From Leuconostoc litchii (GTDB lineage Bacteria; Bacillota; Bacilli; Lactobacillales; Lactobacillaceae): DNA of 64,000 bases. How positions within the stretch are numbered: the stretch's first letter is position 1; every line of letters begins with the position of its first letter. Location of the stretch: NCBI RefSeq assembly GCF_008107645.1, contig NZ_SDGY01000001.1:901630-965629 (forward strand), written 5' to 3'. The notes under the pieces were generated by a model that made no database searches, was not told the origin of the DNA, and saw only the letters and a list, made by a program, of their open reading frames with translations. Below, one piece after another: positions 51,499 to 54,893 of the stretch. The position numbers and the translations under genes are program-made.

Positions 51499-51527
51499 AT
51501 ATTGATACACTAAAATAGTTCGTTGTT

Positions 51528-51600
51528 ATAATCTTCCTTCGTACGCATTATCGTCATCAGGTTCAATGGGTATTTCTCAGCCGTGTGGCACCCCAGATAT
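51528..51600 (-). promoter_or_regulatory. TPP riboswitch (THI element)
   Basis: In the minus strand the aptamer shows GGGGTGCC, CGGCTGAGA, ACCCATTGAACCTGAT, AATGCGTACGAAGGAAGAT, the conserved THI-box blocks. P1 forms between ATATCT and AGATTAT. A promoter with TTGATT (51646-51641) and TACACT (51623-51618) at 17-bp spacing lies upstream. Binding of thiamine pyrophosphate should favour the terminator at 51450-51498. Confidence 0.95.
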
Positions 51601-51677
51601 TTATTTAATTCGTTTTCAGTGTACCTGAATTATGATAAATAATCAAGCAACTTAAAACTTGTGTCGCTGTTGATAAG

Positions 51678-52184
51678 TCATCCCCACCATTCCTTATCAA
51701 AATCACGCATCTTACTAGTTAAAGATAATTGTGTTGCATCTGTTACATGTTGATAAGTTGTAGTATATGGATTCTTCATTAAATCATTCATTTGTTGATA
51801 AACATTACTAGCCAAAAAAGTTGCTAGTTGCTCATGTGTCGACCAGAACGACCAAATCATGTACTCTGCTTTACCATTTTCATTTTGCGCCATAACCGAG
51901 TTACCGGTTAATAGTTTAGCAATCAATTCATTATTATTATTTTTCACTTGAAAAGCAATTTGGTGAATAATATTACCTTCTAAGTGACCATTTAGTTCCT
52001 TGATTTCAAAACCAAGAGGACGTTCAAATTGTGTTACAACTTCAGGTGCATCAAAAATAAGTACATTTGTACCAGCTAGCTGAGAAATTTTGCCCAGGTA
52101 AAAAACATTTTTAGGATGTTGATGTTGTAATGCTATCAATGTTGAAACTGATTGTTCTGGTGCTAAGACTAAATTAATTTTCAT
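51678..52184 (-). CDS. Hypothetical protein, possibly ABM/HmoB-like fold
   Basis: A 168-residue soluble protein. The C-terminal part EYMIWSFWSTHEQLATFLAS resembles the dimeric alpha/beta barrel of antibiotic-biosynthesis-monooxygenase and HmoB-type heme-degrading proteins, as does the general layout (short N-terminal domain, then barrel). The family call is weak. It is the last of four genes whose ends overlap by 4 bases each (ATGA type). That tight coupling to an AAA ATPase and a VWA protein is the strongest clue to its role. Confidence 0.5.
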   Translation of the reverse strand: MKINLVLAPEQSVSTLIALQHQHPKNVFYLGKISQLAGTNVLIFDAPEVVTQFERPLGFEIKELNGHLEGNIIHQIAFQVKNNNNELIAKLLTGNSVMAQNENGKAEYMIWSFWSTHEQLATFLASNVYQQMNDLMKNPYTTTYQHVTDATQLSLTSKMRDFDKEWWG

Positions 52185-52471
52185 AAGAATGGCTCCTTTA
52201 ATGATTGAATGACATCAGGTGATAAACGGTGAATGTTATGATGAATAAACTTTTGTACTCCTTTAAATGTTGCTAAATCGACATTTGTAGAAACTATTTT
52301 TGCACTAACTAATGCTCTAGCAAAAGAAATATCAGCTCTCGTAATCATTGTCATCCCCCAAGGCTCACTTAACAATAATGATTCCCACTGATCATGGAGC
52401 AATGCCTCTGCACGCCGAAATCTGTTATCCTTATCAATAAAGCTTTTAAGATCTTTTGGTTTCAATTTCAT
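52181..52471 (-). CDS. Small hypothetical protein in the MoxR-VWA operon
   Basis: I do not recognise this 96-residue protein. It has no membrane segment or cysteine and looks alpha-helical, with a basic N-terminus (MKLKPKDLKSF). The block RRAEALLHDQWESLLLSEPWG is notable for its paired tryptophans. It overlaps both neighbours by 4 bases (the VWA gene before it and the ABM-like gene after it). It may be an adaptor or substrate of the ATPase system, but the sequence does not say. Confidence 0.6.
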   Translation of the reverse strand: MKLKPKDLKSFIDKDNRFRRAEALLHDQWESLLLSEPWGMTMITRADISFARALVSAKIVSTNVDLATFKGVQKFIHHNIHRLSPDVIQSLKEPFL

Positions 52472-53625
52472 AAGGTTATGACCTTTCCGAAAGGTGCTAA
52501 AATACTTAGTTTTTTGCCTGCTGGTAACAACCAGTAGACTTGTTTAAATTTTGTTTGGATGATACTCTTTTCACCATCTCCATCCGTGAGAATAACAACC
52601 ATGGTCTCTAATGGTGAATATTTCAAGAGAATCAATGTATCAAAGATAATTTGAAAGGTTGTCCCGCCACCAGCGTGTCGCTGCCAAAGTTTAATATTTT
52701 TAACTTCATGAACCTGGGTATCGAATGAAAAAATACGGATACGAGCGTCTATTTGCTTCGTAATTTGTCTAACATTAGCCAAGAATTCACTAGCCTGACG
52801 ATTTGATATAGATGCTGAGTTGTCTATGAAAATAACAATACTCACACTATATTGACGAATTTCTCCTAACAAATCCAAGCGATAGGCTTGTCGTCGATTA
52901 AATCTAGCTCTAGAAGGATTCTTTTTATCAGGTGTTTGACTCAATCCCATTCGCAATAAACTTTTCCAATGACGTTTGGGTAAAATCACCTCGTTAAGTT
53001 GTTGCACAACTTGGCTAGCTACTTCTCCACGCCCAAAATATTTGGTATCTTCAGTTGCCTTTTTAATAACGCTTTTTAGTGCCGCCTTAGCCTCATCTAA
53101 TGATTCATTAGCAGTTGTCCATGATACATGACTTGATCTATTGGGTTGGTTTTCTTTTTGATTGTTTTTTGTTGCTTCAGATAAAAGAGTGATATACGTA
53201 GCAGAATCTTGATATTCAGGTAATTTTAAGTGATATAGCTCATTAATTGTTTGAAACGTTATCGCATCAGGTATAGTATCCAAATCATTTGGTAAATATT
53301 GATTAACAGCTAAGTCTGTTCCTAAATCAACCATTTTATTATTTTGACGTATTTCTGCATAGCGTATAGGATGTTGCCAAATGATATGTAAAGCCTCATG
53401 TGACAATGCTGCAGCTACTTGATTGTGATTACGAAAGCGTATAGCTACTAATTCAGGATTAATCACCAAATACCATTGATGGTGTTGCCATCGTAAAGTT
53501 AAAGGATTAGGCTCATTATAATCTATTTCACGAACTAAATGCATCACAATATTGCCATATAAGGGTGAAACATCTAATAATGTCTTGATACCATCAATAA
53601 TTAAATTGTTAGTTTCTAACTTCAT
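52468..53625 (-). CDS. DUF2201-type protein: HEXXH putative metallopeptidase plus VWA domain
   Basis: A 385-residue soluble protein. The N-terminal domain has HEALHIIWQH (residues 76-85) followed by MVDLGTDLAVNQY, the pattern of the DUF2201 metallopeptidase-like domain. The C-terminal VWA domain has a complete MIDAS: DNSAS (268-272), the threonine in GGGTTFQ and the aspartate in LTDGDGE. Such proteins are usually paired with MoxR ATPases, as here with a 4-base overlap. They are thought to act as metal-dependent protein-remodelling or maturation factors. The target is unknown. Confidence 0.8.
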   Translation of the reverse strand: MKLETNNLIIDGIKTLLDVSPLYGNIVMHLVREIDYNEPNPLTLRWQHHQWYLVINPELVAIRFRNHNQVAAALSHEALHIIWQHPIRYAEIRQNNKMVDLGTDLAVNQYLPNDLDTIPDAITFQTINELYHLKLPEYQDSATYITLLSEATKNNQKENQPNRSSHVSWTTANESLDEAKAALKSVIKKATEDTKYFGRGEVASQVVQQLNEVILPKRHWKSLLRMGLSQTPDKKNPSRARFNRRQAYRLDLLGEIRQYSVSIVIFIDNSASISNRQASEFLANVRQITKQIDARIRIFSFDTQVHEVKNIKLWQRHAGGGTTFQIIFDTLILLKYSPLETMVVILTDGDGEKSIIQTKFKQVYWLLPAGKKLSILAPFGKVITL

Positions 53626-54773
53626 CGTGTTGCAATGTCCATAATTTGCTGATACAAAACATTGGCATAATGATTCTCGGATGCATATAGGTCATCTAAA
53701 ATTGGTGCACTCGTCATTTGCTTGACCAAAGCATATTGACCATCAGGAGCAATGAGATTTAATAATTCACCAAAACGGCCAACATTATTGTCTAGGCTCA
53801 TATCAGCTGTTAACAATAATGTTTTCATCACATTAAGTTTCTGAATTTCCGAAAAACTTTCAAATTTATTTCTGATTTTCATTGGTAATTTTGCCCCTTT
53901 AGGTAGAGAATCAAAAACATCTGCTGCAGTTAGACTAGCTGTTTTTTCTTGAACAAAAGTTACAAATTGACTCGCACAGCTATCACCCAGATCACCGGCA
54001 ACAATATCAAATAACAGCTCATCTTGTTGCTTTTTCGATAGTTCTTGTAATTGAAAAAGATTATCCGATACACGTTGCCATGCACGTGGGGTTGGATTCA
54101 GATCAATATCACGTGAAGTCGGATATAATAATGTTGCATTTTCGGCAATAAATTGACGAACTAAATTATGAATATTCGGTCGTTTTGCACCAAGAGCAGC
54201 CCACTCTAACCAATCAGGGACCGAAACAGACATGACCAAACGTGTCGTGCGATCTGTAATAGCCGCATCCGAAGTTTGAACAGCATATTCGGTATCTTCA
54301 AATCCTTGCATCGAATCATCTGGATTTTCTGCGAGAATTATTTTAACGTTGTCCGGCAAAATAATATCATTAATTTGTCGTTGCAAAACTAAATTCATTA
54401 ATTCCCCTTGTACAGCTTGAGAACCTCTATTAAATTCATCCAAAAACCAGATAATCAATCGTTCTGGATTCAGTTCTGCCTGTTTGATGATTTGAATTAA
54501 GGTGTGTGTATACCCAAATTTAACATCAGCCAAGCGACCATAACTTTGCGTCTTTAAAAAAGATGATTCATTTAATGGTGGAATTGGGATGGCTAGATCA
54601 CCTTTTTCAGATAAGGACACAACGGTAGTGAAAAGCTTAGCATCTAATTTATTTGCTATATCAGTGACCAGTGCGGACTTTCCAATACCGGCCTCACCGA
54701 CAATATTAGGCACATTGCCACCACGAAGCACTAACGGGACCGCTACTAACAATTGTTGATAAGTTAAACTCAT
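53622..54773 (-). CDS. MoxR-type AAA+ ATPase
   Basis: A 383-residue ATPase. Walker A is GEAGIGKS (residues 26-33), Walker B is IIWFLDEFNR (about 107-116), and sensor 1 is ILAENPDD. The downstream helical part is variable. This is the MoxR/RavA-like group that works with VWA partners to assemble or activate protein complexes. I start at 54773, which has GGGGGAT just upstream; the codons before it precede the ribosome site. It is the first gene of a four-gene operon with 4-base overlaps. Confidence 0.85.
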   Translation of the reverse strand: MSLTYQQLLVAVPLVLRGGNVPNIVGEAGIGKSALVTDIANKLDAKLFTTVVSLSEKGDLAIPIPPLNESSFLKTQSYGRLADVKFGYTHTLIQIIKQAELNPERLIIWFLDEFNRGSQAVQGELMNLVLQRQINDIILPDNVKIILAENPDDSMQGFEDTEYAVQTSDAAITDRTTRLVMSVSVPDWLEWAALGAKRPNIHNLVRQFIAENATLLYPTSRDIDLNPTPRAWQRVSDNLFQLQELSKKQQDELLFDIVAGDLGDSCASQFVTFVQEKTASLTAADVFDSLPKGAKLPMKIRNKFESFSEIQKLNVMKTLLLTADMSLDNNVGRFGELLNLIAPDGQYALVKQMTSAPILDDLYASENHYANVLYQQIMDIATR

Positions 54774-54893
54774 ATATCCCCCACTGTTCATAAAAATTTT
54801 ATTTAACCCTAAAATAGCTGTTGGTAAACTATTTTAAATACACTTAATATGTATATTCTACCGCAACACAAATAATCATGCTAAAATGAAAGC

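Follow-up and report, generated by a model that had tools for sequence, protein, structure and literature searches.

The window analysed here is a 64,000-nucleotide stretch of the Leuconostoc litchii genome (assembly GCF_008107645.1, contig NZ_SDGY01000001.1, positions 901,630 to 965,629). It carries four minus-strand open reading frames (ORFs) that an initial annotation, made from the letters of the sequence, had grouped as an operon; all four were confirmed, with an overlap of exactly 4 bases at every junction. The first encodes a MoxR-type AAA+ ATPase of 383 amino acids (aa) (53622..54773, assigned by Pfam and motifs; the earliest ATG, at 54791, would give 389 aa), and the second its partner, a 385-aa protein combining a zincin-like DUF2201_N part with a von Willebrand factor A (VWA) domain and its metal ion-dependent adhesion site (MIDAS) (52468..53625, likewise by Pfam and motifs). 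They are followed by the gene for a 96-aa protein with an all-helical model, here called P96, the third member of a conserved trio (52181..52471), and in fourth position by the gene for a 168-aa protein of HmoB/ABM fold (51678..52184), characterised by its fold and its distribution in a single clade. The ratio of nonsynonymous to synonymous substitution rates (dN/dS) of the four genes was 0.016-0.203 in close pairs where computable, among ten pairs, of which saturated dS ruled out three for P96 and one for MoxR and VWA, and with five pairs testable for the 168-aa gene; a P96 value of 0.52 in one near-identical pair rests on almost no changes. Because the gene order is kept in homologues and dN/dS is low, the four genes are not chance ORFs.

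The distribution of the genes was followed in a main sample of 151 genomes of the same family as the window, from which 46 trio loci were fetched. The VWA profile matched 46 of these genomes, leaving 105 without a trio match, and the P96 profile matched 48; its 46 strong matches are exactly the VWA genomes, and two weak ones (E 0.004 and 0.009) were set aside. The initial annotation had taken the genes for a module of their own, its two small members belonging to no family that it recognised, and the sharing of the same 46 of 151 genomes by P96 and VWA bears this out. P96 lies directly after VWA at all 46 loci (two of them, L050 and L063, recovered separately), with a gap of -26 to +43 bases in the 44 loci measured; 23 overlap, 12 by exactly 4 bases. 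The trio was found in at least six different neighbourhoods, and since P96 stays next to VWA at 46 of 46 loci across them, it moves as a unit. On a trio tree of 45 loci (L061 was left out for a broken MoxR frame in the ORF call) every genus forms its own group. Among 299 genomes of the class, a sample whose same-family share is unstated, the P96 profile found only the genome of the window itself. Three genomes of the main sample (G020, G101 and G071) gave no trio match though sampled congeners carry the trio, and would be useful for finding co-lost genes.

The fourth gene behaves differently from the trio. The 168-aa profile matched 16 of the 151 genomes, 11 strongly and 5 weakly, the weak matches (E 1.7e-4 to 0.009) being set aside and not placed on loci. 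The 11 strong matches are the 11 trio loci, out of 46, at which the 168-aa gene follows P96, and so both small genes are linked to the MoxR-VWA pair, P96 always and the 168-aa gene where it was strongly matched. With 35 of 46 trio loci lacking the 168-aa gene, and one change needed to place it on the trio tree, the core is the trio, joined once by the fourth gene. The four-gene module first proposed thus holds for its three-gene core and not for the fourth gene as part of the unit.

The ATPase matches Pfam AAA_5 (E 1.7e-5, above the cut-off) and carries Walker A (GEAGIGKS), Walker B (FLDE), AENPD and arginine-finger (DRTTR) motifs, by which it is assigned as a MoxR AAA+ ATPase; the Walker A Gly/Lys, DE, AENPD and DR..R positions do not vary among the 45 sequences aligned. 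Residues 85-97 (GRLADVKFGYTHT here) form a conserved segment that is like the NorQ GRxLL/IxxxxT motif, by sequence only, and the stretch GRLADVKFGYT resembles the motif of the NorQ helix-2 insert.

The partner protein matches the Pfam DUF2201 VWA-like domain (3.5e-15) and the DUF2201_N putative metallopeptidase (2.4e-6), and no family in NCBIfam. The HEXXH motif and complete MIDAS attributed to it at the outset are both there (HEALH, DNSAS, T322 and D348). The five MIDAS residues (DxSxS-T-D) are kept in 46 of 46 family members, whereas the protease Glu of HEXXH is mostly lost, kept in 20 and replaced in 26 when L043, where the gene is split and its second fragment reads HVALH, is counted. In the aligned pieces the first His is present in 43 of 46 and the second in 45 of 46, the sole gap being that split gene. 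This difference between HEXXH Glu and MIDAS argues for the VWA protein as an adaptor rather than a protease; its metal site may survive where both His residues are kept, and catalysis would not survive without the Glu. A segment reading RF(N/D)RRQ immediately precedes the MIDAS strand in 46 of 46 members (in the window about residues 234-265, 52831..52926 on the minus strand). The pore finger of NorD, residues 403-448, is also located before the MIDAS strand (PMC13036017 and PMC9976466), and by analogy of position the RFNRRQ segment is a putative pore finger. The window protein ends in GKVITL, and many relatives extend past this point with polar residues; in NorD the hydrophobic extreme C-terminus contacts the ATPase ring. 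The VWA gene is split at L043 and interrupted at L181, by decay or sequencing error.

P96 is predicted to be all-helical with six helices (predicted local distance difference test score, pLDDT, 90.6). No Pfam or NCBIfam family matched it, a Pfam scan of 44 members gave scattered matches of 1-3 members only (best E 0.014), and the best match among sequences of the Protein Data Bank (PDB) had an E of 0.33. A Foldseek search of the model gave a best E of 2.0 and VIA-align a single uninformative row (8pv6_CR, Z 2.2); a known fold is still possible. Only A21 and W29 are invariant, and L3, L25, D47, A51, L54 and L91 are kept in at least 90% of members; as no Cys or His is among the conserved residues, P96 has no apparent cofactor site. 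An origin of P96 by splitting from VWA or MoxR was rejected (hhalign probability 2.2% at most), as was one as a displaced domain of the DUF4116 repeats or of the f6 protein described below, for which hhalign gave no support, and no profile similarity to the 168-aa family was found. A Finegoldia match (L033) lies inside a 2626-aa ORF with nothing MoxR- or VWA-like among the six ORFs listed and was judged a chance hit.

Related pairs outside the family carry other partners. In 295 genomes of the order the VWA profile matched 20, comprising 12 of the same family and 8 of a second family, f6 (f6 sample size unstated). In the latter (genus g47, L174-L181) VWA is followed at 8 of 8 loci by the gene for a conserved protein of 149-171 aa that has no relation to P96; L181 has an interrupted VWA frame, with a 54-aa ORF standing between the two genes. 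Four of these proteins were tested and none matched Pfam over the cut-off; the protein is a second candidate third subunit. More widely, Pfam DUF2201 matched 24 of 299 genomes of the phylum, 19 of which were fetched as 20 regions, and similarity searching identified a VWA protein in 18 of the 20; P96 was not found in these regions. The VWA proteins of the five closest clostridial pairs (L115, L117-L120) align to the window VWA family with an hhalign probability of 100%, and just upstream of their MoxR genes lies a 265-296-aa gene; the two of these that were tested match DUF4116 repeats. As the f6 and clostridial pairs carry different partners, it seems that each lineage has its own protein in the place beside MoxR-VWA.

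Distant VWA relatives also occur in 9 plasmid records and 64 phage records, the latter including, among those listed, the large phages PBS1, AR9 and PA5oct. Several of the listed phage relatives are annotated as HNH or homing endonucleases, and one AR9 record as 'zincin-like protease fused to vWA domain'. In PHROGs the MoxR and VWA matches are the phage families phrog_1297 and phrog_1314, and there is no family for P96 or the 168-aa protein.

Several known systems resemble the trio. RavA-ViaA is a MoxR ATPase and a VWA partner encoded in one operon, as are the first two genes here, and the trio differs in adding the P96 gene. NorQ-NorD, which serves FeB insertion into cNOR, likewise consists of a MoxR AAA+ protein and a MIDAS-bearing VWA protein, and the conserved segment of the trio VWA protein lies before the MIDAS strand, where the NorD finger lies; the N-terminal part of the trio VWA protein, in contrast, matches DUF2201_N, and P96 is added. 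No link of the trio to nitric oxide reductase was seen, although no search was aimed at one. The clostridial pairs have a VWA protein of the same family and differ in that no P96 was found beside them and the closest have the 265-296-aa gene upstream. Searches of the literature covered returned nothing on MoxR with DUF2201 or with 'VWA-like domain-containing protein', only mycobacterial peptidase work for MoxR-VWA in Lactobacillus, and nothing apparently related for MoxR in Leuconostoc. MoxR-VWA pairs are widespread and few have a known client (PMC9976466).

We consider the locus to encode a remodelling machine of the MoxR class whose three subunits are conserved, with P96 as a dedicated third subunit or specificity adaptor, at a probability of roughly 50%. 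A MoxR hexamer would be the motor, and the DUF2201/VWA protein would plug its ring, probably through the RFNRRQ segment before the MIDAS strand, while the MIDAS would grip the client by an acidic residue. P96 would link the MoxR-VWA pair to that client, and the 168-aa protein would be a later, clade-specific accessory or client. By analogy this would be a NorQD- or RavA-ViaA-like machine in which the specificity subunit can be exchanged. There is precedent for a specificity part of its own: in the proposal of PMC9976466, the target is determined by the VWA partner through its variable N-terminal domain. The trio is probably a variant MoxR-VWA machine of lactic-acid bacteria with a previously unnamed helical third protein, P96, that would choose the target of the motor. 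Its perfect co-occurrence with the motor makes P96 a concrete handle on the client, and the unrelated proteins beside related pairs suggest a general way of re-targeting MoxR motors.

Several points weigh against this interpretation. All 46 loci go back to a small number of ancestors, and the perfect co-occurrence therefore amounts to a handful of independent events. The link of P96 to MoxR-VWA is known here from the genes, and the putative finger, helix-2 insert and C-terminal contact are read from sequence alone. One locus has a split VWA gene (L043), and at another (L061) the ORF call shows a broken reading frame for MoxR, the sequence itself being there. The genomic hints to a client, the ffh-rpsP operon and the cyd locus described below, are weak. 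Finally, P96 could be a client rather than an adaptor: in the possible but unlikely case that it is the sole client, folded, activated or given a cofactor by the MoxR-VWA pair, perfect co-occurrence and operon position would fit equally well, and the unrelated third proteins elsewhere could be different clients. A confident helical model of 96 aa with no apparent cofactor site speaks against P96 as sole client.

The gene neighbourhood raises the question of a role in ribosome assembly or on the signal recognition particle (SRP). Midasin/Rea1 is a single giant protein in eukaryotic ribosome assembly; the trio shares with it the principle of an AAA ring and a MIDAS domain and differs in having separate subunits, its ribosome link being one of gene neighbourhood only. 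At 17 of the 46 loci, from 6 genera, the trio stands directly before rpsP-(khpA)-rimM-trmD. Twelve of these 17 lie directly between ffh and rpsP, one (L077) has other genes upstream, and in four the trio is separated from ffh by a large gene (which in L060, the one tested, encodes a cation P-type ATPase). Midasin is also counted among MoxR-vWA systems (PMC7159879), and the trio would then be a split bacterial analogue of midasin/Rea1. However, the rpsP-linked position needs two changes on the trio tree, implying one or two independent events, and the ffh-rpsP junction is not special: at 17 other ffh loci (8 from genomes with the trio elsewhere, 9 from genomes without it), rpsP comes soon after ffh in 8 and behind another gene in 1, while the remaining 8 show no rpsP in the stretch covered and several have unrelated genes there (putative functions, by sequence). 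Twenty-nine of the 46 trio loci lie elsewhere, and 105 of the 151 family genomes have no trio match. A literature search on MoxR, midasin and bacterial ribosomes returned no title on a bacterial ribosome-assembly MoxR. The two tree changes and the ordinary ffh junction leave this link with little weight, and we regard it as rather unlikely. A wider version, in which a modular MoxR-DUF2201 family in Bacillota is re-targeted by a swapped partner (P96, the f6 149-171-aa protein or the DUF4116 protein) and the form found here is a split midasin-like ribosome/SRP remodeller, is a long shot.

The 168-aa protein bears on a further proposal. The initial annotation had called it HmoB-like, and its AlphaFold2 model (pLDDT 86.5) agrees: the best Foldseek match is HmoB (4jou, E 1.2e-6, TM-scores 0.64/0.68), followed by ABM-fold proteins and TRAP. 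As modelled, it has a double ferredoxin-like ABM fold. No Pfam or NCBIfam model matched, and the sequence profile against the PDB ranked HmoB first, weakly (E 0.016). HmoB Trp128 and His138, which we take to be members of the heme-oxygenase triad, align with F123 and N133, respectively, and these positions are Phe in 11 of 11 members and His in 2 of 11. The IsdG triad is Asn-Trp-His, with the proximal His in helix 3 in HmoB (PMC4835899). The 168-aa protein shares the fold of the HmoB/IsdG heme oxygenases and TRAP without the oxygenase Trp or a conserved proximal His, and because Phe replaces Trp and no proximal His is conserved, the heme reading of the protein is weak; it probably has no heme-oxygenase activity.

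The annotation had gone on to suggest that the pair might load or protect an enzyme that depends on heme or a metal, the 168-aa protein handling the heme. Besides the fold, this could draw on four close g24 genomes (L063, L066, L068 and L071) in which the trio comes after cydB and genes for CydCD-type transporters (Pfam was run at L063), and on the respiratory enzymes served by NorQD and RavA-ViaA (PMC13036017, PMC3893208 and PMC10585395). The residues just described oppose it, the 168-aa gene is absent from 35 of 46 trio loci, and the trio does not track cytochrome bd: CydA was found in 35 of 46 trio genomes and in 64 of the 105 that have no trio match (Fisher p 0.09, uncorrected for kinship), leaving 11 trio genomes without it. 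We consider this role improbable. Near the cyd-linked g24 loci lie genes for a polyprenyl synthetase and for a prenyltransferase of UbiA type (Pfam on L063 only).

A conflict or anti-phage system was also weighed, as MoxR-vWA ternary conflict systems exist (PMC7159879), large phages encode distant VWA relatives, and two weak partial PADLOC matches were obtained (AbiO, E 0.022; Cas6b, E 0.003). These matches span small parts of the models or protein with no clear system match, Pfam and PADLOC recognised no effector domain in the four proteins, and the genus-wise grouping on the tree and purifying selection also count against such a function, which we find very improbable. An active metalloprotease function of the VWA protein, with P96 or a client as substrate, is hardly credible, for although DUF2201_N is named a putative metallopeptidase, HEALH is intact in the window protein and HEXXH has its Glu in 13 of 18 relatives from Clostridia and Bacilli, that catalytic residue is replaced in 26 of 46 family members that nearly always keep the two His.

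Elsewhere in the sample, most trio loci of genera g3 and g6 lie near a 3-methyladenine glycosylase, permease or PepO-type M13 peptidase gene, three g38 loci sit behind sbcD-sbcC-like genes, and in the clade of the window the trio mostly adjoins yfhO or a large putative penicillin-binding protein gene. Upstream of the operon, a short intergenic stretch (54774..54893, no strand) reaches up to a divergent NAD(P)-binding (NmrA-like) gene and is the predicted site of the operon promoter. Just downstream, a thiamine pyrophosphate (TPP) riboswitch (Rfam RF00059, 62.7 bits) at 51517-51605 on the minus strand precedes thiM-thiD-thiE; its expression platform may be the hairpin at 51490-51454, which looks like a terminator.

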